Shown piece by piece: positions 2,215 to 21,419 of a stretch of 64,000 nt of DNA. The notes beneath the pieces were generated by a model, which did not search any database, was not told the DNA's origin, and saw only the letters and a program-made list of their open reading frames with translations. The stretch is from Acidimicrobiaceae bacterium. GTDB taxonomy: Bacteria; Actinomycetota; Acidimicrobiia; Acidimicrobiales; RAAP-2. How positions within the stretch are numbered: the first letter of the stretch is position 1; every line of letters starts with the position of its first letter. The DNA lies in the NCBI GenBank assembly GCA_003160635.1, contig PMLV01000325.1, positions 1-64,000 of the forward strand, in the 5' to 3' direction. Both the position numbers and the translations under genes were made by a program.

Positions 2215-3551
2215 CGTCTGCTCAGTTTCACATCTTTGCTCCAACACTGAAGCAAGTCGAAGAGGCAGTACGTCGAACGTTTCCGGATCGGCAGATCCCG
2301 GCCGATCTGTACGACAAGCGCTCAAGCGCAGCGTACGTTCGAACCGGAATCAAGGCTTCCACGAATTTTTCGGAGCCTCGCCTTGAGTCACAGCTTTGGA
2401 ACTCCGCAAAGTACGCACTTCTTGGGACGGCGGCGTACAACTTGACCTCCGATGTGAATCGAAACCTAAAGGTAGGACCACATCTCCTCGAAGTTTGGCT
2501 CGGCGAGCTCGACATCGGTTGGAGGTTCTCAGTATCTCGGCAAGAGATGCGAGATCTGGAATGTGTTCTCTCTCAAGTTCCGCCCGCCCCGCGCTGCGCT
2601 GAAGCACCGGTCCTTGACTGGGTCGGGAATTGGGTCCTAAACGCGTTGATGGACCCGCATCGCGGATCCCTCGGACAGGTGCTGGGCGTCGAAATTCAAT
2701 CAGAGCCAGTGCGGGCCTTCATCGCATGCGCCATGTCCGATCCTCCCGATGACGAAGTCGAACAGCTGTTGGGCGTTTCTGATTCCTTTGCTCGGATATT
2801 GAGTGCAGCCGGAATACTCTGCTATCAGCCGCTACTCACTCATGACCCTCGTAAAGATCGCGAGGCCGCTGATCATCCGAGCAACAGAACCCTAAATGAA
2901 CGCCAAATCGCGTCATGCGACCTGGTCATCGTCATTGCGGATCGTCCCGCATATGGGCTTGGCGTGGTGGATTCCTTCGCATTGAAGTACGGAGCCCACA
3001 TAGTGCTCGTTAGTGGAGGACTTCCTATTTCTCCAATGATTGTTGGAAGTGTCCCGCCTCCATTTCAAATCGCGCTCGGACCCGATGCGACATCTGAGTT
3101 CAAGGAATACCTGTCATCTAACATGATCGGGCTACGACACGAGTCCCTTGAACGTCGGGAAGCTCAGCGGCGCGCAAGAGTGGAGCTCAATGCCTACAGA
3201 GATCGCCTGGCAGGTCTGTCGATTGAACAGCTAGAGCGACACAGGAAGGTGCGCATGGCAAGAGAACGATTCAGGCAGCTCATTTCAGATGCCGACCTCT
3301 TCGACGGGATGAGCCATCGGGAATACCGGGTCTTGATGGACCTTGTGGATGACAACGTACCTTTGCCGGAACTGACATTTGATGAGCTGCGTGCCCTCTA
3401 TCGAGCGGAGTTCGAACTCGGATGGGACACATCTCTGACTCCCGAGATAGCCCGAATTGGCCGTGGGGTGCTGGTGTCAGGAAAACAGCGATTCGAACCT
3501 GAGAACTTTCAATTCTGGATCGAGATGTACCGGCGCCTCAAAGCTTCATGA
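2211..3551 (+). CDS. Protein with a nucleoside 2-deoxyribosyltransferase-like (TIR-like) domain
   Basis: The product has 446 residues. Residues 1-150 match nothing I know. From about residue 163 a Rossmann-like alpha/beta unit begins (VRAFIACAMSD), passes through an ILSAAGILCYQP segment and reaches a characteristic core (ASCDLVIVIADRP..GLGVVDSFALKYG..IVLV). This resembles the 'aDlvva..d....E.gyA...gkPv' signature of nucleoside deoxyribosyltransferases, a fold close to TIR-like NAD consumers in bacterial immunity. The usual catalytic glutamate position reads as Asp (VVDSFALKYG), so activity is uncertain. A charged helical segment and an all-helical C-terminal part follow. The gene overlaps its neighbours on both sides (ATGA with ImmA). 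Role in defence is inferred. Confidence 0.6.
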   Translation: MTSAQFHIFAPTLKQVEEAVRRTFPDRQIPADLYDKRSSAAYVRTGIKASTNFSEPRLESQLWNSAKYALLGTAAYNLTSDVNRNLKVGPHLLEVWLGELDIGWRFSVSRQEMRDLECVLSQVPPAPRCAEAPVLDWVGNWVLNALMDPHRGSLGQVLGVEIQSEPVRAFIACAMSDPPDDEVEQLLGVSDSFARILSAAGILCYQPLLTHDPRKDREAADHPSNRTLNERQIASCDLVIVIADRPAYGLGVVDSFALKYGAHIVLVSGGLPISPMIVGSVPPPFQIALGPDATSEFKEYLSSNMIGLRHESLERREAQRRARVELNAYRDRLAGLSIEQLERHRKVRMARERFRQLISDADLFDGMSHREYRVLMDLVDDNVPLPELTFDELRALYRAEFELGWDTSLTPEIARIGRGVLVSGKQRFEPENFQFWIEMYRRLKAS

Positions 3552-5081: not shown

Positions 5082-5504
5082 TTAGAGCCTGAGCCACCCC
5101 CGGAGCCGACGGCGGACGGGTCGGCACACCGACGCCGCTACTCCAGCTTCGGCCTCTTCTCGCTGAGTGAAGTAGGCCTCGCGGCCGCGGTCGTCACGCT
5201 TACGGCCGGCGACAACCTGCTCGTCGGTCCAAGCGCCGGACCACCGAATCTTATCTCGCTTGATCCAGTAATGAGACCTGCAAGGGAAGCCCCAGTTTCC
5301 TATCGAAGGTGTTAGCGACACCGTGTCTCCGTCGAACACCAGGTGCCAGTCGGCCGGCGTAATCGGGGTAACCACTTTGTTTCCACATCCGCAAGCGCAT
5401 CGGTGCACCGCTGTTGCGAAGGGAATGGAGACATAGAGAACACCCTCGGCAAGCTCGGACGGCACGTACTTCACGAATTCGTGCTTGATCGAGGTACGTT
5501 TCAC
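5082..5504 (-). CDS. DUF6527 family protein of a ubiquitin-like operon
   Basis: The 140-residue product has a Cys cluster C36-x-C38-x-C40 (CACGCG) and a second conserved block PCRSHYWI with Cys75 and His78. Together they look like a metal-binding site. This arrangement is typical of DUF6527 proteins, which are found beside multiubiquitin and ThiF/E1 genes in bacteria. A role as metal-dependent processing or de-conjugating enzyme has been suggested by context for such genes; here it is inference. The gene is the last of the operon and overlaps the E1-like gene by 4 bases (start 5504, previous stop 5501). The basic C-terminal 30 residues are poorly conserved in character. Confidence 0.8.
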   Translation of the reverse strand: MKRTSIKHEFVKYVPSELAEGVLYVSIPFATAVHRCACGCGNKVVTPITPADWHLVFDGDTVSLTPSIGNWGFPCRSHYWIKRDKIRWSGAWTDEQVVAGRKRDDRGREAYFTQREEAEAGVAASVCRPVRRRLRGWLRL

Positions 5505-6682
5505 GACGCCCTGTCATCATTAAGGAGGTGGTTCCCGTCGATGGTGTAGACCGAGAACAGCTCGTGCTCAAAATCGGCGTAGAAGCCATACAGCTTCTTC
5601 CATTTGAGTACCGCAAGAACCGCATTAAGGGCGTTTAGATCTGCGATTTGGATGTTGCTGTCGTACTCGTCGCCTTCAGCATCGGCGAAGGACAGCCGTT
5701 GACCCTCCCAGATGTGTCGTCGGTGGGACGGGATGCTGGAAGTTACTCGCACGATGCCAGCCAGCGCGTCACCGGTTCTGTATACGCCCATACCGGCATC
5801 GATGAACGGAAGGTCATACTCCTCGAGCTTCTCGACGACGAGCTTTTTCGACGGACCTGAGTCCATCGCCAAAAAGACGAACGTCATTTCCTTCAACTGG
5901 GCGACGTTGGTCTCGTCAATGTTCACCGAGTGGGCGACGATGCCACGACGCATTGCATCGTATTTGCGCTGGAAGTACTCCGCTTTTGACGGTGAGGTTT
6001 GCAGCTCTTCGAGCGAGGCGGCACCAGGGGCCCGGAACGCATTGTGAGTAAACAGCGTGTCTCCGTCGTAGAGATGGATCTCTTCGATCGGGGTCTTGGC
6101 AATGAGGTCGAGGATGTAGGAGCCGGTGCCGCCGAGACCGACAATCGCCACTTTGGTCAGGGCCAGCTTGCTGGTTAGGTGGCTGATCTGGGCCCGGCTC
6201 GACGCTGTGTCTAGATAGCGGAAGACCGAATCTTCTTCGCTGGCAGGCATGACTGGGAAGATCTTTGCCGTTGCCGCAGGGTCAATAGCCTGCGCCCAGC
6301 CGGAGACCATATTCACGTAGGCCGTGATCTTTGCGTGGTAGTCCGGGTAGCCCTCAGGCGGCTTGCTCGAAAAGACACAGTCGGCGATGAGCCCCTCGGC
6401 GACTGGCGTCCGACCCTTACTGTTGATGATGTTCGTGAGCTCAGACCCTCGGTTGTCGCAAGGGATGCCTCCAGCGAACGACACCACGTGAGTGCTCGGT
6501 CTGACCGTGGTGGTGCCGCTCGTCGAAAGCTCGGAGACAATGGTCCCGTACGCCACCTGACTGGCCGAGGTCACGTAGGGGACCCGCTTGACAAGGAGAT
6601 AGTTCGAGCGGATCTCGATGTCATAGCCCTCGTCCTGAAGGCGTTGGAGGTCGAGGCTATGACTTACCAGTTGGCGTGACAT
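5501..6682 (-). CDS. E1-like ThiF/MoeB-family adenylyltransferase with DUF6791-type N-terminal domain
   Basis: The 393-residue protein has two parts. Residues 1-170 form the DUF6791-type domain, with FSSKPPEGYPDYHAKIT at about 104-120 and cysteines at 75 and 102. Residues 175-393 form the ThiF/E1 Rossmann domain, with GLGGTG at 182-187, YDGD at 205-208 and HNAFRAPG at 213-220. The last two match the nucleotide-binding and Asn/Arg positions of E1 enzymes. Such proteins adenylate the C terminus of a ubiquitin-like protein, here presumably the product of the adjacent 6657-6938 gene. No separate E2 gene exists, so the N-terminal domain may supply transfer function (inference). The start was set at the ATG at 6682, overlapping the upstream gene by 26 bases; a frame extension to 6742 would overlap it far more. 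Confidence 0.88.
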   Translation of the reverse strand: MSRQLVSHSLDLQRLQDEGYDIEIRSNYLLVKRVPYVTSASQVAYGTIVSELSTSGTTTVRPSTHVVSFAGGIPCDNRGSELTNIINSKGRTPVAEGLIADCVFSSKPPEGYPDYHAKITAYVNMVSGWAQAIDPAATAKIFPVMPASEEDSVFRYLDTASSRAQISHLTSKLALTKVAIVGLGGTGSYILDLIAKTPIEEIHLYDGDTLFTHNAFRAPGAASLEELQTSPSKAEYFQRKYDAMRRGIVAHSVNIDETNVAQLKEMTFVFLAMDSGPSKKLVVEKLEEYDLPFIDAGMGVYRTGDALAGIVRVTSSIPSHRRHIWEGQRLSFADAEGDEYDSNIQIADLNALNAVLAVLKWKKLYGFYADFEHELFSVYTIDGNHLLNDDRAS

Positions 6683-6938
6683 TGAAGGTCGTGCCTTCCT
6701 GCTTGACGGTGACAAGTTCCCCCTCGACGAGGATCCCTTCATGCTTGGGGGCTTCGGCGTTGCGGTAAGTCACGGTGTAGGTCGTCCCTTGGTCGGGTCG
6801 AGTCGGGTAAGCGATAGCGACGACTTCGGTGTACGACACTTCCTGGTGCGGAACGACCGCCAACTCGCCATTGATGACGATGGCGTACTCAGTGTGGCGG
6901 GCTTCATCCTCGGGCGTCGAGGTAGCGGCTTCGCTCAT
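6657..6938 (-). CDS. Multiubiquitin-domain protein
   Basis: The 93-residue product has an acidic 20-residue leader followed by one beta-grasp unit that reads through the multiubiquitin family pattern: YAIVINGE, VSYTEVVAIAY, YTVTYRNA, EGILVEGELVTVKQEG, FNVTPTGKS. The protein lacks a C-terminal Gly-Gly and ends in GKS, as multiubiquitin proteins commonly do. It is likely the modifier or scaffold acted on by the E1-like enzyme encoded just downstream. The ATG at 6938 was chosen because AAAGGAG lies 7-8 bases upstream; a start at 6968 has no such site. A 146-base gap to the ATPase gene upstream could hold an internal promoter. Confidence 0.88.
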   Translation of the reverse strand: MSEAATSTPEDEARHTEYAIVINGELAVVPHQEVSYTEVVAIAYPTRPDQGTTYTVTYRNAEAPKHEGILVEGELVTVKQEGTTFNVTPTGKS

Positions 6939-7084: not shown

Positions 7085-8848
7085 TCAGCTCACGTGCTCG
7101 GTCCGGAGGTACTCGACCCGGACGCGGCCCGGCTGGAACTCGGCGAGGCGGCGGGCAAGAGGCTCCTCGTAGGTGGTGACAAAGATCTGCTCCAGTCCCG
7201 ACGCTGTGCTGAGGTGCGCCAGCATCGAGCCGACAAGGTGGCGACTAGGAGGATCGAGATGCTCAAGGGGCTCATCGACCCAACAGAAGGGCACCTTTGT
7301 CGTGACGAGGAGCGTCGTCAACCGCATCATGAGCTTGGCGACCATCTTTTCGCCCGCACTGAACGCGGCAAAGGCGAGGACGGCTCCACCTGCGTCTCGT
7401 GACATGGTGCCGTCTGGCAGCACATTGAGATTCGGCCGATCCGGAAACACCGACTGCCAGCGACGGTTGACCTCCGATGTCAACGGAGCGAGTTGCTCAC
7501 CTAGGACAGAGCTGATCGTGGAGTTGAGGGCCTTCTCGGCAGCATCGAGAAGCGCCACCTCGCGATAGCGCCGCTTGAGGAGTTCCGCTTCCTCCAGTTC
7601 GCCCGAGATCTGCTCGATCCTCTCTTCGGCGCGTTGGGCAGCAATTTCCAGCTCGCGAAGCGCGGCCGCTGCACGTTCAAGGTCCGCCAGCGCAGTGGCT
7701 GCATCGATACCGAGAAGGTCGGATTCCTCAACAGATTCCACGCTTGGTCTCTCGCCGAGGGCCGCGACACGCCGCTCCAGCGTCTCAACGTCGTTGAGAC
7801 GCTGCACGAGGGGGTGGGGGTCTATGACTTCAAGCCGTTGACGGACATCCGCGAGGTCCTGCAAGTGGAGATGCTCAGCCCTCCCTCGGCTCTCGTCGTC
7901 CAGCTCGCGTAAGCAGACGGGGCACTCCCCTCCAGCTTCGTGCAGCCTCGCGATCGCCTCCTCGACAGCCTCCAATCGTGCCTTGAGCTGAGCCTGCTCT
8001 GCTCTTGCCGACTCCACGCCGTCGCGCACCGACTGCTTGACTTGGTTAAGCACCTGTTCCAGCGGTGCGTCTTGCGGCGGCATGCCAACCACTTCCTCGA
8101 CCTCGCGACGAAACGCGACGTTGCGATCGTCCCAAATGGCAGCAGCCGCTTGGAGGCGAGCCGCTGCTGAGGCACGTTCCGAGGCTCCTTGGGAGTCTGC
8201 AAGCCTTTGACGAGCCGCAGACACTGCGGATCGAGCTGATTCGAGGCGGTTCTCGACCGCTGCCCTTTCGTCCCGTGCGGTGATGAGTTGCTCACTAGTG
8301 GCCGTTAGTTCTGCTCGTGCCGCGCTGACGCCACGATTGGCTCGCCTAAGCGCGGGCCCGATTTCCTCGAGGGCTCGCTGTAACTCGTCGAGCGAATAGA
8401 CGCTGCAAAGATGAGATCTGAGGTCGGGTTCGTCCTCCTCAACGCGCAGGTCTTCAGTGAGAAATGCGGTCCTGGACACGAAGCGCAAGTCGGCGGACCA
8501 GGCTTCAGAAAGGATGCCGCGGACCTCCTCCTCCTGCAGCGTTTGGCCGTCGAGGACAGCACTGAATTTCGAGGTAGAGCGAGCGCCGCGCAGTGTGATC
8601 TCGCGCCGGACTTCGAGCTCACCACGTTCGCTGGTCAGAGTCACCGTTGCAGCGGCCGCAGTATGACCATTACGTACCACTGTTGGGTCATCGGCCATTG
8701 GTCCCGGCGCAAGCGCCCACCGGACGGCTTCGAGGAGTGAGCTCTTTCCTACGCCATTTGGGGCGACCAGGAATGTAACGCCAGGATCGACGTGCAAGTC
8801 CAGGTGCCGATACGCTCGCCAGTTCTCAAGGCGGACCCGGCGGATCAT
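7085..8848 (-). CDS. Rad50/SMC-like ATPase with zinc-hook motif
   Basis: The 587-residue product begins with an ABC-type head. Walker A is at residues 29-38 (APNGVGKSSL). Two long coiled-coil arms flank a CPVC hook at about residue 307, and the C-terminal half carries an FSAGEKMV signature and a Walker B CWVDEPLEHLDP. This order (head, coil, CxxC hook, coil, head) is that of Rad50 and small SMC-like ATPases. These bind DNA ends or tether DNA, often with a nuclease partner. No SbcD/Mre11 nuclease gene is adjacent; the nearest nuclease-like gene is at 12107-13798. The start overlaps the previous stop (ATGA at 8845-8848), so it is coupled to the ZAS-motif protein. It is short for Rad50, closer to defence-associated RecF/SMC-like proteins. 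Confidence 0.85.
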   Translation of the reverse strand: MIRRVRLENWRAYRHLDLHVDPGVTFLVAPNGVGKSSLLEAVRWALAPGPMADDPTVVRNGHTAAAATVTLTSERGELEVRREITLRGARSTSKFSAVLDGQTLQEEEVRGILSEAWSADLRFVSRTAFLTEDLRVEEDEPDLRSHLCSVYSLDELQRALEEIGPALRRANRGVSAARAELTATSEQLITARDERAAVENRLESARSAVSAARQRLADSQGASERASAAARLQAAAAIWDDRNVAFRREVEEVVGMPPQDAPLEQVLNQVKQSVRDGVESARAEQAQLKARLEAVEEAIARLHEAGGECPVCLRELDDESRGRAEHLHLQDLADVRQRLEVIDPHPLVQRLNDVETLERRVAALGERPSVESVEESDLLGIDAATALADLERAAAALRELEIAAQRAEERIEQISGELEEAELLKRRYREVALLDAAEKALNSTISSVLGEQLAPLTSEVNRRWQSVFPDRPNLNVLPDGTMSRDAGGAVLAFAAFSAGEKMVAKLMMRLTTLLVTTKVPFCWVDEPLEHLDPPSRHLVGSMLAHLSTASGLEQIFVTTYEEPLARRLAEFQPGRVRVEYLRTEHVS

Positions 8849-14601: not shown

Positions 14602-15561
14602 ATGGACAGTGACGACTATCCCGGCCCCCGCATCGTCGGTCGCGGTGGGCGCGGGACGGGCGGCTGGGTCTGGGTCGCCCCCGGGATCGGGCAGCCGTTA
14701 CCAGAAGACCGGTCCGACAAACCATCACATCGGCAGCACGATTCAGCCACGAACGAGAACGGGTCGGATTCCGCCGTCCTTTTCGAAGAGGCAACCGCGC
14801 CGCCGTCTGAAGGAGAGCCCTCGTCGCCACTCCCCGAGGAGACACCGGCGGACCATGGGGTCCGTGTCAACGTCATCGGTCCCTTGGAGATCGAGTCGTG
14901 GGTAGACCCGCCGACGCGCCACAAGGTCACCGAGGCACTGTGCTTCTTGGCCCTCCACCGCAAACGACCGATGACCATGGAGGAGCTCCAGATCGCCCTT
15001 TCCAGTGACGGCGACGACGCTCCCGAGACGAGTGCGAAGAGCGTGCGCACCTACATGTCCGAGCTCCGCCGGTCATTGGGGGCGGAGCACGTTCCGTCGG
15101 CCCGTGGATCGGGCTATCGCCTGGCCGATTCGGTGAGCACCGACTGGGACGTGTTCCGGTCCCTCGTGGCGCTAAGACCCACGGAATTCGACGACCAGGT
15201 GCAGGCGCTCATCGACGCGCTGAACCTGGTGCGCGGTCGCCCCTTTGCCGGTACCGATTACGCGTGGGTTAACTCTGAGCTGTTGGTCTCTGAGATGGAG
15301 GTGGCGATCAGCGACGCCGCACGTCGATTGGGCAAGATCGCCATGGCCTCTAAGCGGAATCTCGAGGGCATCGCCTACTTCGCCGGCCGGCGCGCCGCTC
15401 TCGCCTGTCCCTACGACATCGGCCTGTGGGAGATGGCCATGGAGGCAGCTGCCGCCTTCGACCATGACGAGCTGGTCCGCACCTGGCGCGAGGCGCAGGC
15501 AACGCTCGGTGAGGATCCGACAGCCTTGCGCGACCTGGCCGAGCGGTTGGGCTTGGACTAA
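14602..15561 (+). CDS. AfsR/SARP-type transcriptional regulator (winged helix plus BTAD)
   Basis: The 319-residue protein has a low-complexity N terminus, then a winged-helix domain from about residue 88 (VNVIGPLEIE ... PMTMEELQIAL ... SVRTYMSELRRSLG ... GSGYRL). A BTAD helical domain follows (WDVFRSLVAL ... ALNLVRGRPFAG ... AACPYDIGLWEMAMEAA-like repeats). The order is that of SARP regulators, which activate nearby genes. It converges on the TraG gene with a 4-base overlap of stops (15558-15561). As the only plus-strand gene of the module it may control transfer genes; that is inference. Confidence 0.8.
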   Translation: MDSDDYPGPRIVGRGGRGTGGWVWVAPGIGQPLPEDRSDKPSHRQHDSATNENGSDSAVLFEEATAPPSEGEPSSPLPEETPADHGVRVNVIGPLEIESWVDPPTRHKVTEALCFLALHRKRPMTMEELQIALSSDGDDAPETSAKSVRTYMSELRRSLGAEHVPSARGSGYRLADSVSTDWDVFRSLVALRPTEFDDQVQALIDALNLVRGRPFAGTDYAWVNSELLVSEMEVAISDAARRLGKIAMASKRNLEGIAYFAGRRAALACPYDIGLWEMAMEAAAAFDHDELVRTWREAQATLGEDPTALRDLAERLGLD

Positions 15562-17000
15562 TCGAGCGGGGCGAAGCGGAGCAGCTCTTCGCGCACCGAG
15601 TCGGGAGGGAGAGCCAGTTCCCTCAGATCCGTGCGCTCCCACCACGGGCGAAGCCAGACCTCGCCGATGTGGGAACCGTTGATCAAGAGCCCGTGGCCGG
15701 GCCGGCCCCGGGCGATGGCATCGACCGGATAGCGGGGCAAGAACACGGTGCTCACCGAGGACGAGGCGTGGATGCGACCCCACTCGCCCACGTACTTACC
15801 GACCGTGGTCGTCGGCACCTCGACCTTGCCACCGAGCGCGCTGATCAGCTCGAGCGTGCGCTGGTCGGCTATCCCGGGAAAGATCACCTTGACCCCGAAG
15901 AGGGTGAAGAAGCCGTCGGCGGCCGAACCCCAGCGGGCCCGGGCCTGGGAGAGGTCCTGTAGGCAGGCGAGCGTCACCACTCCCTGGCCGCCCCCTTCGG
16001 ACGCCAAGGCGGGAAGGCCGGGCAGCGGCGCGATGTTGGCCACCTCGTCGAGGGCGAAGACGACCGGGGCGGCAAAGCTCGGCCGGGCGAAGGCGGCCGA
16101 GCTGATCTGGTCGAGGAGGGCCACGACGAGGGGAGCCAGCTGGTTCTGGTGCTCCGCCGGGGCGCAGATGTACAGGCTGTCGGTCGAGGCCACGAAGGCG
16201 GCGGGGTCGAAGTTCGGCCGGCTGGTAGAGGCCAGGACCTTCTCGGAGCGATAGGCGGCGAGCAGCCCCGCAGCGGTGGAAAAGACACCCGAGAGCTCCC
16301 GCTCGTCGGTGACGGCCAAGCCGGTCAGCGTTGCGCCAGCCATCTCCTGGCCGCTGGCCTCGACGATAGCCAGCGGCTCCCGCAGGTCACGGGCGAGGAC
16401 CCAGCGGAAGACCGACCGCATGTCGAGATCCCTGGAGGCCGCGGCGAAGAGCAACGGGGCGAGCAGGGCCTGGGCCCGCTCCACCCAGTGCGCCGAATCC
16501 GTGCCGGCTGACCCCGGCCGGGCCGCGGAGGCCAGGGCGTAGGAAACCGCGCTGGCCCGGTCGAAAGACTGGCACCCGAGCACCGGTGACCAGCGCAGCT
16601 CGTGCATGAACCAGGGCCGCTCGATCGTCTCGAAGGGGTCGAAGAGGAAGCACCGGCCGAGGCGACCCCGGTGCGCGGCGGTGGCGGTGAGCACATCGGG
16701 CTTGGTGGAGGTGGAGACCGTGGCGGCGGGTGCATCGAGGACGGTCGGGATGACGACGGTCGAGGTCTTGCCCGAACGGGGCGGGCCGATGACCAGCACG
16801 GCGTTCTCGGCCCCGGCGTAGACGGGCGCGGTGGAGCGGTATCCGTTCTCGGAGAGGGGATCCTGCCCGCCCGGGTGCTCGCCGACCGAGCAGCCCCACC
16901 AGGGACGCCCGGAGGTGCCCGGCGGCATTGGCGAGAGAGGTGACGAGCTCGACGGCGACGCCGAACTGTCGGCGGCCTTGCCCTTTCCTCTTCGCCTCAT
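15558..17000 (-). CDS. TraG/TraD/VirD4-family conjugation coupling ATPase
   Basis: The 480-residue protein has Walker A at residues 72-80 (GPPRSGKTS), Walker B in VVFALDEVANIAPLPGLP, and the downstream GVVTLACLQDLSQARARWG motif typical of T4CPs. There is no obvious N-terminal membrane helix, which fits the shorter, soluble actinobacterial form. It brings the relaxase-DNA complex to a secretion channel. It overlaps the relaxase stop by 4 bases (16997-17000), so the two are made together. Confidence 0.88.
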   Translation of the reverse strand: MRRRGKGKAADSSASPSSSSPLSPMPPGTSGRPWWGCSVGEHPGGQDPLSENGYRSTAPVYAGAENAVLVIGPPRSGKTSTVVIPTVLDAPAATVSTSTKPDVLTATAAHRGRLGRCFLFDPFETIERPWFMHELRWSPVLGCQSFDRASAVSYALASAARPGSAGTDSAHWVERAQALLAPLLFAAASRDLDMRSVFRWVLARDLREPLAIVEASGQEMAGATLTGLAVTDERELSGVFSTAAGLLAAYRSEKVLASTSRPNFDPAAFVASTDSLYICAPAEHQNQLAPLVVALLDQISSAAFARPSFAAPVVFALDEVANIAPLPGLPALASEGGGQGVVTLACLQDLSQARARWGSAADGFFTLFGVKVIFPGIADQRTLELISALGGKVEVPTTTVGKYVGEWGRIHASSSVSTVFLPRYPVDAIARGRPGHGLLINGSHIGEVWLRPWWERTDLRELALPPDSVREELLRFAPLD

Positions 17001-19891
17001 CGCCCCATCCCGAGCTCAGGCCCCTCTAGCTCGCGCCAGCGACGGCGCTCGTAGCGGGCGATCTCGGCTGCCACCGCGTCGTAGGCCAGGCGCGGGAATG
17101 TCTCGAAGGGTCGTGGCCCGAGCGGGTCGTCCCCTTCGACGAAATGGAGCGCCCGGTAGCGGTTGATGGACTGCGTGAGCTGATCGTAGCGACCCTGCTC
17201 GTCGACGAAGAACGGGCGGGGGCCGAGGGCGGCGACGATGTGGGCCGGGGGTTCCGGCCCGGTGAAGTCGGTGGCGGTGAAGTCGGTCCCGCTGAAGATG
17301 ACCATGGTCGGGCTCGCAGCTAGCGCATCGGCGGGCCCGGCGGCCCGAGCGTGAGGCAAGCCGTTCGCGGCGTTCCACCTCTGATCAGCGGGGGTCGCGA
17401 TGGTCGAAAGGTCGCCTGCCGGCAACGACCCCTCCTCGAGGTGGCTAGAGGCCAGAACCTTGGCGCGCGAGACGGCCAGGCGGCCGGCTGTGTGCGAGAG
17501 CGGCTCGACCTCTGCGACCTCGGGGCCGAGACCCTGCTCGAAGGAGCCCCCGCCGACGAACAGCTCGGTGCTGATCCGGGCCCGACTCATCGCCACATAC
17601 CCGGCCTCTTTGGTCAATGACTCGGTCGCCAACACGAACGCCCGGTCATAGGTCGCCCCCTGGGCCTTGTGGACGGTAGTGGCGTAGCCATAGTCGAGGT
17701 GGCCGGCGCACAGGTACTCCTTGGGCAACCTCCGATGAGCGTCTCCGACGCAAAAGACGAGGTCCGTACCGTCGAGCCGGACGACGGTGCCCCGGGTGCC
17801 GTTGATCACACCGAGCCGGCGCGCGTTGCGCAGGCATACCACCTCGTCCCCGGGCGCGAACGCCCTTCCGTTTGCGTCCAGCAGATCTGCCGCCACCGTG
17901 CCGCGACTTTGCAGTACGGCACGGGCCTGGTGGTTGAGGGCGCTGACATCGCGCCGGTTGACCGCCAGCATGAGGGCGTCAGCCCCCTCCTCGCGGGCCG
18001 CCAGCCAGCGACCGACCAGGTCGCTCCGCGCGCCGGCCATGGTGTCGGAGATGTGGATTCGTCCGTGCTGACCGTAGGCGCCCAGGGCACTTGCGACATC
18101 GCCCGAGCGCAGCTGGTCGAGAGCAGTCCGTTCCCACAGCTCGCGCTGTCGGCGGTTCTCGGTGAGCTCGAGGACTCCGGGGCGCGCCGCCAGGGCCGCG
18201 AAAGTGCCGCCGGCTGCGATCTCGGGGAGCTGGCGGGGATCGCCCACCAACACCAGCTTGGCTCCCGACGCTTGCGCCACCTCCACCAGTCGGGCCAGGG
18301 TCCGTGTCCCAACCATCCCGGCCTCGTCGACCACCACGACGTCACTTGCGGACAAGGTCCGGCGCCCCGACTCGAGCTCGCCCATGAACCGGGTCAAGGT
18401 CGCCGAAGCAATGCCCGCGCTCGCCTCGAGCTCCTCGGCCGCCCGGGCCGACAGGGCGGTGCTCGAGACCTCGAACCCCGCCCCTTCGAAGATCTCCCGG
18501 GCCAGCGACAGCGCCGTGGTCTTGCCCGCTCCGGCCTTTCCCACGACGACCTCGATGGGGCGTCCCGAGCAGACCAAGGATCCGACCATGGCGCGCTGTT
18601 CAACCGACAGCTCGGCTCGTCGGACCAGAACCTCCTCGGCCCGCGCCGGGGTGACGGCGGCTGAGGTTGGGCTCGGGGCCGCGGCACGCTCGAGGAGGTT
18701 CGCCTCGATGCCCAGGAGCTCACTGGTCGAGTACAAGGACTCGCCGGCCCGATCCGTGCCCCCGAGCGAGACAGTCTCGGGTCGGTCGAGGGTCTTCTCG
18801 ACCACCGCCTCGATGGCGTCGAGATGGGCGCCGTCGAGGAGCCTCTCGGCGACGGCACGGACGGCGTCGCGGCGCGAGAAGCTCGAGTCGTCGGCCGTGA
18901 GCCCAGTCGACCCGAGCAGTGCCCTCGACAGCAGACCGCTCGAGCGATCGCCGAGGGACACGGCTCGGGCCGGCCCGAAGTCGGGAAAGAGGAGATCGAC
19001 ATCCACGCCGTGCTCGGTGGCCATGAGCCGCCACTGGGCCCGCAGGTCGACGACGTGTTCGTCTGTGCCCGACCGTGGTTGCTTGGGCGTCCGGGTGGCC
19101 AGCGCCGCCAGTTCTGCCGTGCGCCCCGACGAGGGCCCACCATGGGCAAAGAGGTACTCCTCGATCTCGGCCCGGCGGGTGGAGAAGCGGCGCAGCACCG
19201 CAGCGTCGACGCCGTCGATCTCGGCTGCACCGCGGTGGACGGGACCGAAGGCGACGCCGAGGGACTCGACCAGACCGGCCCGCAAAGACGCCTGGTAGAC
19301 GAAGCCGGCGGTCCGGGCGTGGGCGTAGAGTCCGCGAGCGTCGGGGGCCGACCAGCGGCCGTCCTCGCCGAGCACGGCATTGGCCGCCAGGACGTGGGTG
19401 TGGAGTTGGGGATCGCCGTTGCGAGAGGTGCGATGCACGAAGGCAGCGGCCACCAACCCACCAGTGCGGATCCGGCGCAGGCCGTCGGTGCCCCGGCGGG
19501 CGAAGAGGGCGTGGCGCTCGAGGTAGGCCACGCCCTCGGTCACGGCCTGGTCGTGGGCGGCCCGGACCGCTCCGGAGTGCACCGGGGATCCGAGCGCATA
19601 GAGGAGGGAGACGGATTTGGGAGACGAGAAGGTCAGGTCGAAGCCACCCACCCGGGTGCCCGATCGCCGCGGCAAGCCGAGATCGGTTCCGGTGCGCGGC
19701 GAGAGGCCGGCCAAGATGGCGGCCAAGGCCTCGGGGCTGACCGGCCCGGCCAGGCCGAGATCGTCGGTCCCACCCCCGAGCCAGGTGCCCGGTGACTCGC
19801 CGGCTCCGCTGTAGTACTCCTCTTGGCCCTCGGCCACCATGGAGAGGTAGTAGTCCTCGGCCCCGGCGACCAGCTTGCCAATGGACAGCAT
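16997..19891 (-). CDS. MobF-family relaxase-helicase (TrwC/TraA-like)
   Basis: The 964-residue protein starts with the relaxase domain. Tyr pairs lie at residues 14-15 and 26-27, GFDLTFSSPKSVSLLYAL is at 83-100, and the metal triad region has His153, His164 and His166 (LHTH). A superfamily I helicase follows, with Walker A VGKAGAGKTT (about residue 450), DVVVVDEAGMVGT and YATTVHKAQGATYDRA. It nicks oriT and unwinds the transferred strand. The ATG at 19891 is chosen because family members begin with this MLSIGKL-like sequence. The frame stays open to 20446 but there it runs antisense and out of frame to other features. Confidence 0.9.
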   Translation of the reverse strand: MLSIGKLVAGAEDYYLSMVAEGQEEYYSGAGESPGTWLGGGTDDLGLAGPVSPEALAAILAGLSPRTGTDLGLPRRSGTRVGGFDLTFSSPKSVSLLYALGSPVHSGAVRAAHDQAVTEGVAYLERHALFARRGTDGLRRIRTGGLVAAAFVHRTSRNGDPQLHTHVLAANAVLGEDGRWSAPDARGLYAHARTAGFVYQASLRAGLVESLGVAFGPVHRGAAEIDGVDAAVLRRFSTRRAEIEEYLFAHGGPSSGRTAELAALATRTPKQPRSGTDEHVVDLRAQWRLMATEHGVDVDLLFPDFGPARAVSLGDRSSGLLSRALLGSTGLTADDSSFSRRDAVRAVAERLLDGAHLDAIEAVVEKTLDRPETVSLGGTDRAGESLYSTSELLGIEANLLERAAAPSPTSAAVTPARAEEVLVRRAELSVEQRAMVGSLVCSGRPIEVVVGKAGAGKTTALSLAREIFEGAGFEVSSTALSARAAEELEASAGIASATLTRFMGELESGRRTLSASDVVVVDEAGMVGTRTLARLVEVAQASGAKLVLVGDPRQLPEIAAGGTFAALAARPGVLELTENRRQRELWERTALDQLRSGDVASALGAYGQHGRIHISDTMAGARSDLVGRWLAAREEGADALMLAVNRRDVSALNHQARAVLQSRGTVAADLLDANGRAFAPGDEVVCLRNARRLGVINGTRGTVVRLDGTDLVFCVGDAHRRLPKEYLCAGHLDYGYATTVHKAQGATYDRAFVLATESLTKEAGYVAMSRARISTELFVGGGSFEQGLGPEVAEVEPLSHTAGRLAVSRAKVLASSHLEEGSLPAGDLSTIATPADQRWNAANGLPHARAAGPADALAASPTMVIFSGTDFTATDFTGPEPPAHIVAALGPRPFFVDEQGRYDQLTQSINRYRALHFVEGDDPLGPRPFETFPRLAYDAVAAEIARYERRRWRELEGPELGMGR

Positions 19892-19904: not shown

Positions 19905-20132
19905 TTATCTGCCCGAGGGGGCAGAGGAGAGCATTTCGAGGAGAGCGGCCTTGGGGACGACGATGCGGCGCCCGAAACGAACCACGGGCAACTCCCCCCG
20001 GGCGACAAGCTCGTAGGCGAAGGCTCGGGAGAGGCCGAGGAGCGCACCGGCTTCGGCGACACTGAGCACCAGCCGGTCGTCGCCAAGTTGGTCGGAGATG
20101 GAGCGGGGATTGGGTGTATCGGTCGTGTGCAT
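19905..20132 (-). CDS. Excisionase-type helix-turn-helix protein
   Basis: The 75-residue protein contains the MerR/Xis-like unit LVLSVAEAGALLGLSRAFAYELVARGELPVVRFGRRIVVPKAALLEML. This is the standard 'excisionase DNA-binding domain' layout. It ends 13 bases before the relaxase ATG and probably leads the xis-mobF-traG operon. It may bind the 12-bp iterons just upstream. The ATG at 20132 is used because the residues before it (to 20177) look like non-coding sequence. Confidence 0.8.
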   Translation of the reverse strand: MHTTDTPNPRSISDQLGDDRLVLSVAEAGALLGLSRAFAYELVARGELPVVRFGRRIVVPKAALLEMLSSAPSGR

Positions 20133-20153
20133 GGCAGCATGGTGCACGGGCGA

Positions 20154-20295
20154 CGTCCACAGAAATGTCCACGCCAATGTCCACTGCGAACCGAATCAGG
20201 GCTCGAGCACCAAGATGCTGCGTGACGCATCGCCGACCAACGTCCCAGTTCAGCGGGCTTGCGACGACCCGCGTGGACATCGGCGTGGACATTGC
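20154..20295. repeat. 12-bp iterons in two opposed sets (candidate oriT or regulator-binding region)
   Basis: GTCCAC recurs at 20155, 20167 and 20179, exactly 12 bases apart, within units of the form AATGTCCACGCC. The reverse form GTGGAC recurs at 20273 and 20285, again 12 bases apart. The two sets face each other across about 90 bases that contain the short palindrome TGCGTGACGCA. Placement immediately upstream of an excisionase-like gene and a MobF relaxase suggests binding sites for one of them. Confidence 0.55.
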
Positions 20296-20330
20296 GCAAA
20301 AGAATTTCTCGGAACATCGAGGCCAGGACA

Positions 20331-20380
20331 GTCAAGGCCGGCGCAGCCGAGGGGGGCACGTGTGCCCACCGTGCCTTGAC
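20331..20380. repeat. Nested inverted repeats
   Basis: GTCAAGGC at 20331-20338 pairs with GCCTTGAC at 20373-20380. Inside them GGGCAC (20354-20359) pairs with GTGCCC (20362-20367). This adds to the structured non-coding block 20133-20642, which contains no gene I can support. Confidence 0.45.
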
Positions 20381-20413
20381 GGTCCGGACCCGCCCCGGAG
20401 ACACAATGGATTG

Positions 20414-20435
20414 GGCCGGCCGGTAACGGCCGGCC
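20414..20435. repeat. Perfect 9-bp hairpin with GTAA loop
   Basis: GGCCGGCCG (20414-20422) and CGGCCGGCC (20427-20435) flank the tetraloop GTAA. There is no T-run on either side, so a terminator role is less likely than a nicking-region or protein-binding structure. Confidence 0.5.
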
Positions 20436-20566
20436 TGGATGCGCATTGTCCATTTTCAAGCGGCCGGTTCCGCGTCGAGCCTCCCCCTGCGGGGACTCCC
20501 GGGAAGCCGGCGGGGTTGCCGTGCATGGAACCATGCAAATGTGTGACTCCTTTTGTGGACGTTGTC

Positions 20567-20624
20567 CGGGAGGGCGTGAGGGCGTGAGGGTGGGAGGGCG
20601 GGAGGGCGTGAGGGCGTGAGGGGC
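20567..20624 (+). repeat. G-rich short tandem repeats
   Basis: About 57 bases consist of repeated GGGAGGGCGTGA and GGGCGTGA units. They give many G-runs on the plus strand, compatible with a G-quadruplex. The stretch is directly upstream of TTGACA (20627-20632) and the start of the frameshifted gene at 20643. Confidence 0.6.
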
Positions 20625-20642
20625 AGTTGACAATGTGTTGGG

Positions 20643-21419
20643 GTGAACACCATCGTGGCGGCGGTGCAAGACCGCTATGCCGGCGACGTTGGAGACTTCA
20701 TGAAGTTCGGGCTCTTGCGGGCCCTCGTGGCCGGTGATCCATCACTCCGGCTTGGGGTGAACTGGTACCTGACTGGGGATGATTCCCACAACGCCGATGG
20801 CAAGCACATAGGCTACCTCGACCCTTGGACGACGCACCACGCCTCACTACGGTCCTGCGATGCCGATCTGATGGGACGACTCGGGCAGGTGGTGAGAACC
20901 GACCGCTCGGTGGCCGCTCTCGAAAGTTCCGGCGTGTTGCCTGAAGGGTCGCTGACCTATTGCCGCCAGGCTGCTTGACGACATGCGGGAGACCGGGCGT
21001 CGAACGTGGCACTCGGTGCACTCGAGGCCCTCGGTGATGCTGACGTGGTCTTCGTCGACCCCGACAACGGGATCCGTAGCTCCCGTTCGGGCACTAAGCC
21101 GTCCAAGTTCGTGTTCCTCGACGAACTGGCCGACTACAGCGCCCGGGGACAGAGCCTCGTGATCTACCACCACGCCGACCGCAGTGCCGGTGGAGTCGCT
21201 GCTCAGGTACCTCGGCGACTCGACGAGCTCGCCCTCGGCACCGCCATAGAACCCCTGGGTTCGGTGATCGCCCGGCGAGGCAGCACCCGCTACTTCTTCA
21301 TTGTGCCGGCACCCGCACACCGCGAATGGCTCCGCAATGCGGCACGGTCCCACTTGGCCCGATGGGAGCCCCATGTCGAGTTCGTGACCTATGTCGCACC
21401 GCCAGCGGTCCCTCAATAG
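20643..21419 (+). pseudogene. Hypothetical gene interrupted by two compensating frameshifts or a stop
   Basis: The frame opens at GTG 20643 with YAGDVGDFMKFGLLRAL, stops at TGA 20976-20978, and resumes in the same frame to 21419 with ALGDADVVFVDPDNGIR and LVIYHHADR. Between about 20960 and 21010 the +1 frame reads RLLDDMRETGRRTWHS, which fits the missing link. So one indel shifts the frame and a second restores it. The family is a conserved hypothetical of about 240-260 residues whose function I do not know. Either the gene is dead or the sequence has two small errors. Confidence 0.6.

Follow-up and report, generated by a model that had tools for sequence, protein, structure and literature searches.

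Opposed 12-bp repeats as a probable control region of an actinobacterial MobF relaxase operon, separate from a predicted oriT core

The MobF transfer locus and its intergenic region

The window, meaning the whole 64-kb stretch of DNA analysed here, belongs to a 6.9-Mb metagenome assembly, assigned to the actinobacteria on the strength of its relatives and of the first-pass annotation, in which the transfer region is present as a single copy. It encodes a MobF/TrwC relaxase, a VirD4/TraG-like coupling protein and an HTH_17 or "excisionase" (xis) ORF, at the positions reported in the first-pass annotation, an earlier reading of the same DNA. The relaxase (PF08751, 1.1e-79; AAA_30; NCBIfam MobF, 245 bits against a cut-off of 100) has the TrwC-type relaxase domain fused to a helicase that characterises the MOBF family. 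The features of the locus are as follows:

14602-15561, + strand: SARP-like regulator with a PhoB-type winged helix-turn-helix and an AfsR/EmbR-like helical domain, convergent with the coupling-protein gene
15558-17000, - strand: VirD4/TraG-like coupling protein
16997-19891, - strand: MobF/TrwC relaxase-helicase (TrwC 1e-79; NCBIfam MobF above cut-off)
19905-20132, - strand: HTH_17/excisionase-family ORF, first gene of the operon
20139-20144, - strand: CACCAT, a -10-like hexamer separated from the last repeat by exactly 10 nt
20155-20184, - strand: three direct repeats at 12-bp steps (GTGGAC attggc GTGGAC atttct GTGGAC), the proposed box for a SARP-like activator at the relaxase-operon promoter
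20273-20290, + strand: two inverted copies of the same hexamer (GTGGAC atcggc GTGGAC), a proposed auxiliary operator
20321-20390, no strand assigned: long imperfect hairpin, arms TCAAGGC/GCCTTGA (20321-20338 and 20373-20390), similar in loci L062, L064 and L083
20414-20435, no strand assigned: GC-rich GTAA-type hairpin, similar in L062 and L064
20523-20545, + strand: predicted oriT core, hairpin GCATGGAACCATGC (GCATG-GAAC-CATGC) with single-strand tail AAATGTGTG, the best match in 64 kb
20567-20622, + strand: G-rich 8-bp tandem array directly past the oriT core, also delimited as 20570-20622

The GTAA hairpin, the nested inverted repeat and the G-rich tandem array, all listed in the first-pass annotation, are all present; the first two fold better than shuffled sequence (z about -3.5), and the G-rich array has no counterpart among the relatives examined. 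The long hairpin, with arms of the form (C)GTCAAG../..CTTGAC, recurs between the oriT core and the repeat array in the window, L062, L064 and L083. Bases next to the core have changed yet still pair, and the arms of this hairpin contain GTCAAG, the hexamer that acts as the box in other elements. The Rfam scan of the window returned no match.

Beyond the G-rich array, the ORF at 20643-21419 (+ strand) has an in-frame stop near 20976 and is apparently a broken gene. An SMC/Rad50-like ATPase and a ThiF/DUF6791 protein (7085-8848 and 5501-6742, - strand) share the contig arm with the transfer genes and are possibly cargo.

Repeat architecture and promoter geometry

On the + strand, three GTCCAC units (20155, 20167 and 20179) and two inverted GTGGAC units (20273 and 20285) lie at steps of exactly 12 bp and face each other across 88 bp, where the first-pass annotation had placed them. 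This arrangement is beyond chance: among 3000 dinucleotide-shuffled versions of the region, 0.13% contained an identical hexamer triple at equal spacing and none a triple with an equally spaced inverted pair. An additional lone GTGGAC is present at 20555, and no second array was found within the 64-kb window.

A peptide-pattern scan of the genome collection with the relaxase returned no relative, and a different genome search was used instead. The GTGGAC array itself was not found upstream of the related relaxases, its sequence not being conserved. A sequence-free test for any hexamer occurring three times at equal spacing (periods 7-30), run on the 800-nt upstream regions of 60 MobF relaxases, peaked sharply at 12 bp, with 8-11 loci versus 0-3 for every other period. 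In eight loci, the window and its closest relatives, two inverted and three direct repeats occur at 12-bp steps with a locus-specific hexamer: GGGGAA in L062, GGGGAC in L063, GTCAAG in L085, L140, L163 and L167, and GTCAAC/G in L166. In these loci the start of the opposed pair precedes the triple by 74-106 bp, and the first gene comes after the triple. Direct repeats without a clear inverted pair are present in L082, L083, L129 and L064 (two repeats in L064). In the MobF loci of Corynebacterium plasmids (about 35-40% identity), the upstream regions carry no recognisable array or oriT core. What is conserved upstream of these operons is the architecture, which is kept in the eight loci, and not the hexamer. 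The lack of iteron conservation that the first-pass annotation named as counting against its reading is therefore not what is observed.

The position of the repeats relative to the first gene is strictly kept. Every one of the 12 direct-repeat loci has exactly 10 nt between its last direct hexamer and an xA....T hexamer, and 6-7 nt more before the ATG that opens the first gene; the last repeat and the ATG are thus separated by 22-23 nt. The hexamer in the window is CACCAT, with the ATG of the HTH_17 ORF 6 nt past it. A leaderless transcript of the first gene is likely, since the -10-like hexamer is only 6-7 nt from the ATG in every one of these loci. Scanning the loci for the combination of triple, hexamer and start codon returned the array sites and a few matches lacking the inverted pair.

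The same geometry precedes different genes. In L082 (G381), a second near-identical direct array and -10-like hexamer precede an N6_N4 DNA methylase gene (2517-3269, - strand) rather than an oriT, and the L082 box seems to control this second gene. The first gene of the relaxase operon is the HTH_17 ORF in the window, L062, L063, L082 and L083. In L140, L163, L166, L167 and L085 its place is taken by an unrelated ORF of 235-256 aa; the L129 operon starts with a very short ORF, and that of L064 with the relaxase. The C-terminus of the 235-256-aa protein resembles by eye a sigma-region-4-type helix-turn-helix, and its L167 copy has no Pfam match.

Small MerR-like helix-turn-helix proteins can bind head-to-tail repeats, and in the five loci where the HTH_17 ORF comes first the repeats lie directly upstream of its start codon, as would be expected if this protein bound them to repress its own operon. 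This is very improbable, as the same array is found before the unrelated first genes of L140, L163, L166, L167 and L085 and before the relaxase of L064, and as changes in repeat sequence are already explained by covariation with the SARP-like protein described below. In seven of the 12 array loci xis is not first or was not found in the operon. With xis missing from about half of these operons, the HTH_17 protein was set aside as the binder of the repeats, and sites for a co-encoded xis accessory protein are likewise improbable.

Short head-to-tail repeats in non-coding DNA are also typical of Rep and Par sites, which would make the array a set of plasmid replication or partition iterons. This explanation is extremely doubtful, given that the subset of window ORFs scanned contains no Rep-family match, that the remaining contig carries metabolic genes and that the promoter geometry is strict in 12 loci. 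A divergent promoter at the inverted pair was also considered and dropped: an A/T-rich patch is present in the window, L062, L063 and L163 at variable spacing and absent elsewhere, and no consistent promoter was found there.

The SARP-like regulator and its pairing with the repeats

The 319-aa regulator has an OmpR/PhoB-type DNA-binding domain (Trans_reg_C above cut-off) followed by a BTAD-type helical domain, the order found in SARPs. BTAD gave no Pfam match in this protein at E 0.01, and is matched in its relatives of L167 and L064. In a structure search with the model of the regulator (mean pLDDT 88), the sole matches at E ≤ 0.001 were EmbR and AfsR in transcription complexes (8k60 and 8hvr, in which AfsR is bound to DNA and RNAP).

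Many of these elements encode a relative of the regulator next to their coupling-protein gene. Seven loci have the SARP-like gene beside a complete relaxase operon (window, L063, L140, L166, L167, L120/L085 and L064), and all seven carry direct repeats, six as full opposed arrays and L064 as two direct repeats. In L163, which has the array, no SARP-like gene occurs in the roughly 10 kb that follow. Co-occurrence alone is weak evidence, since the array and the regulator have been inherited together within a single clade.

Covariation between protein and repeat was examined by pairing eight regulators with their repeats, two of the pairs (L203/L062 and L208/L082) being joined across contigs of one MAG, and scoring 206 windows of seven residues with correction for overall relatedness. 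The recognition helix ranked first of the 206 for covariation with the repeat hexamer (partial r 0.74-0.83), and exact permutation gave 2/40320 (p = 5e-5, on a small sample of n = 8). Regulators with K[ST][VL][RH][NT] pair with the G-rich boxes GTGGAC, GGGGAC, GGGGAA and CGGGAC, and those with [ED]TVxQ with GTCAAG/C boxes; this pattern was noticed by eye and afterwards ranked against all other windows. Attempts to match further regulators with promoters (G021 and G355) gave no array in the stretches examined. The SARP-like (AfsR-fold) protein of 14602-15561 is thus the likely binder of the repeats.

By simple hydropathy, nine of the 12 regulator ORFs examined (L167, L166, L120, L064, L063, L140, L202, L203 and L205) have a hydrophobic, membrane-like stretch on the N-terminal side of the SARP domain, and the window regulator has none. 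As a tentative lead, the regulators with such a stretch may be membrane-anchored sensors. They resemble ToxR/CadC-type transmembrane winged-helix activators in joining a predicted membrane segment to a PhoB-type DNA-binding domain, as most relatives of the regulator do, and differ in the SARP/BTAD fold, in the membrane segment being N-terminal to the DNA-binding domain and in the window protein having no predicted segment.

The closest likeness is to the SARP promoters of Streptomyces (AfsR/afsS and the PimR, DnrI and ActII-ORF4 boxes), in which two or three direct repeats overlap the -35/spacer region before a poor -10, and whose activators share the OmpR/PhoB-type winged helix-turn-helix and BTAD-type fold matched by our model in 8k60 and 8hvr. 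Published SARP boxes have direct repeats at 11 or 22 bp, the last of them 8 bp from a poor -10, which is CACTGT in afsS (PMC10936776), and boxes of three heptamers exist (PMC10972967). The step here is exactly 12 bp in 12 loci and not 11 or 22, so that the published spacing is not reproduced; the distance from the last conserved hexamer to the -10-like hexamer is 10 nt, or 8 if the unit is taken as the 8 bp contacted by AfsR. Unlike the Streptomyces systems, the present loci have an extra inverted pair upstream, target a MobF relaxase operon rather than an antibiotic cluster, and encode regulators whose DNA-binding domain lies towards the C-terminal side, behind a predicted membrane segment in most relatives.

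The predicted oriT core and probable control of the relaxase operon

Most MobF relaxases of the order have, upstream and antisense to the gene, a hairpin GCAYN-loop-NRTGC followed by a AAGTGTGTG-like sequence. This feature was modelled as a hairpin with a weight matrix from 23 training loci, excluding the window and its two nearest relatives; a covariance model was not used, because stem gaps were misplaced in the alignment. Over both strands of the 64 kb, the best match is at 20523 (+ strand, 24.6 bits), the next scoring 12.0 and the maximum over 40 Markov-shuffled windows being 20.0. In about 24 of 40 loci, counted without near-identical members and with training and test loci otherwise overlapping, the best match (above 14 bits) is antisense and upstream of the relaxase.

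The window has, at 20523-20545, the hairpin and specific tail on the antisense strand upstream of the relaxase operon that are found at MOBF origins. The hairpin resembles the IR2-type hairpin of R388 (GCACC-GAAA-GGTGC versus GCATG-GAAC-CATGC in the window), and as in the nic regions of R388 and F, about 9 nt separate the stem from the predicted nick, and the strand predicted to be nicked is antisense to, and upstream of, the transfer operon. The tail differs, being AAATGTGTG in the window versus GTATTGTCT in R388 and GTGGGGTGT in F. When applied to R388 and F, the model did not place the true nic among its best matches, indicating that the window core is a lineage-specific version. The R388 hairpin has its arms at nt 3-7 and 12-16, and R388 is nicked after nt 25, before a purine (PMC4176350). 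Counted in this way, the window nick is predicted at 20545/20546, and overall at about 20544-20546. The F pattern would place it one base earlier.

The first-pass annotation had read the whole structured region as an oriT with accessory-protein sites. An oriT very probably does lie inside 20133-20642, but its core would be the 20523-20545 hairpin with its TGTGTG tail, which was not among the structures listed there, and the iterons are probably not its accessory sites. If they were, a relaxosome protein such as the HTH_17 protein would bind them to open or bend the origin, and several observations agree with this: the iterons are no more than about 400 bp from the predicted nick, hairpins abound in the intergenic region, and MobF origins usually carry direct or inverted repeats that bind the relaxase or accessory proteins (PMC4853378). 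This role is nevertheless unlikely, because the HTH_17 gene is not first in the repeat-bearing loci L140, L163, L166, L167, L085 and L064, a second direct array fronts the methylase gene, and the oriT core, about 230 bases beyond the facing repeats in the window, is separated from the array by about 230 to about 820 bp across loci, in contrast to the fixed distance to the -10-like hexamer and ATG. Together with the helix covariation, these observations tie the iterons to the promoter and the SARP-like regulator.

The opposed iterons thus probably form the regulatory region of the xis-relaxase-coupling protein operon promoter, acted on by a SARP-like activator, with a separate oriT core. This transcriptional reading is preferred because the distance of the repeats to the -10-like hexamer and ATG is fixed in 12 of 12 loci. 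The three direct repeats would lie where the -35 element, missing from this leaderless promoter, would be expected, and the SARP-like activator, encoded at the far end of the operon, would bind them head-to-tail and bring RNA polymerase to CACCAT, a poor -10 hexamer. The two upstream inverted repeats would bind the same protein and probably modulate its action, as a second operator or through a loop. The relaxase made from the operon would then nick the separate oriT core near 20545, and delivery of the DNA would fall to the coupling protein.

SARPs are familiar as regulators that switch antibiotic clusters; at this locus a SARP appears to control conjugation, and no paper linking SARPs to relaxases was found in the open-licence literature searched. 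The diverging protein and box pairs would show which recognition-helix residues read which bases, and the conserved oriT core of actinobacterial MobF elements would allow mobilisable elements to be recognised in genomes without an annotated origin. More tentatively, actinobacterial MobF elements may form a family in which a SARP-type activator, mostly membrane-anchored, couples an outside signal directly to expression from the relaxase operon, each element having its own pair of activator and 12-bp box, and the inverted boxes may also link this activator with the relaxosome at the oriT close by.
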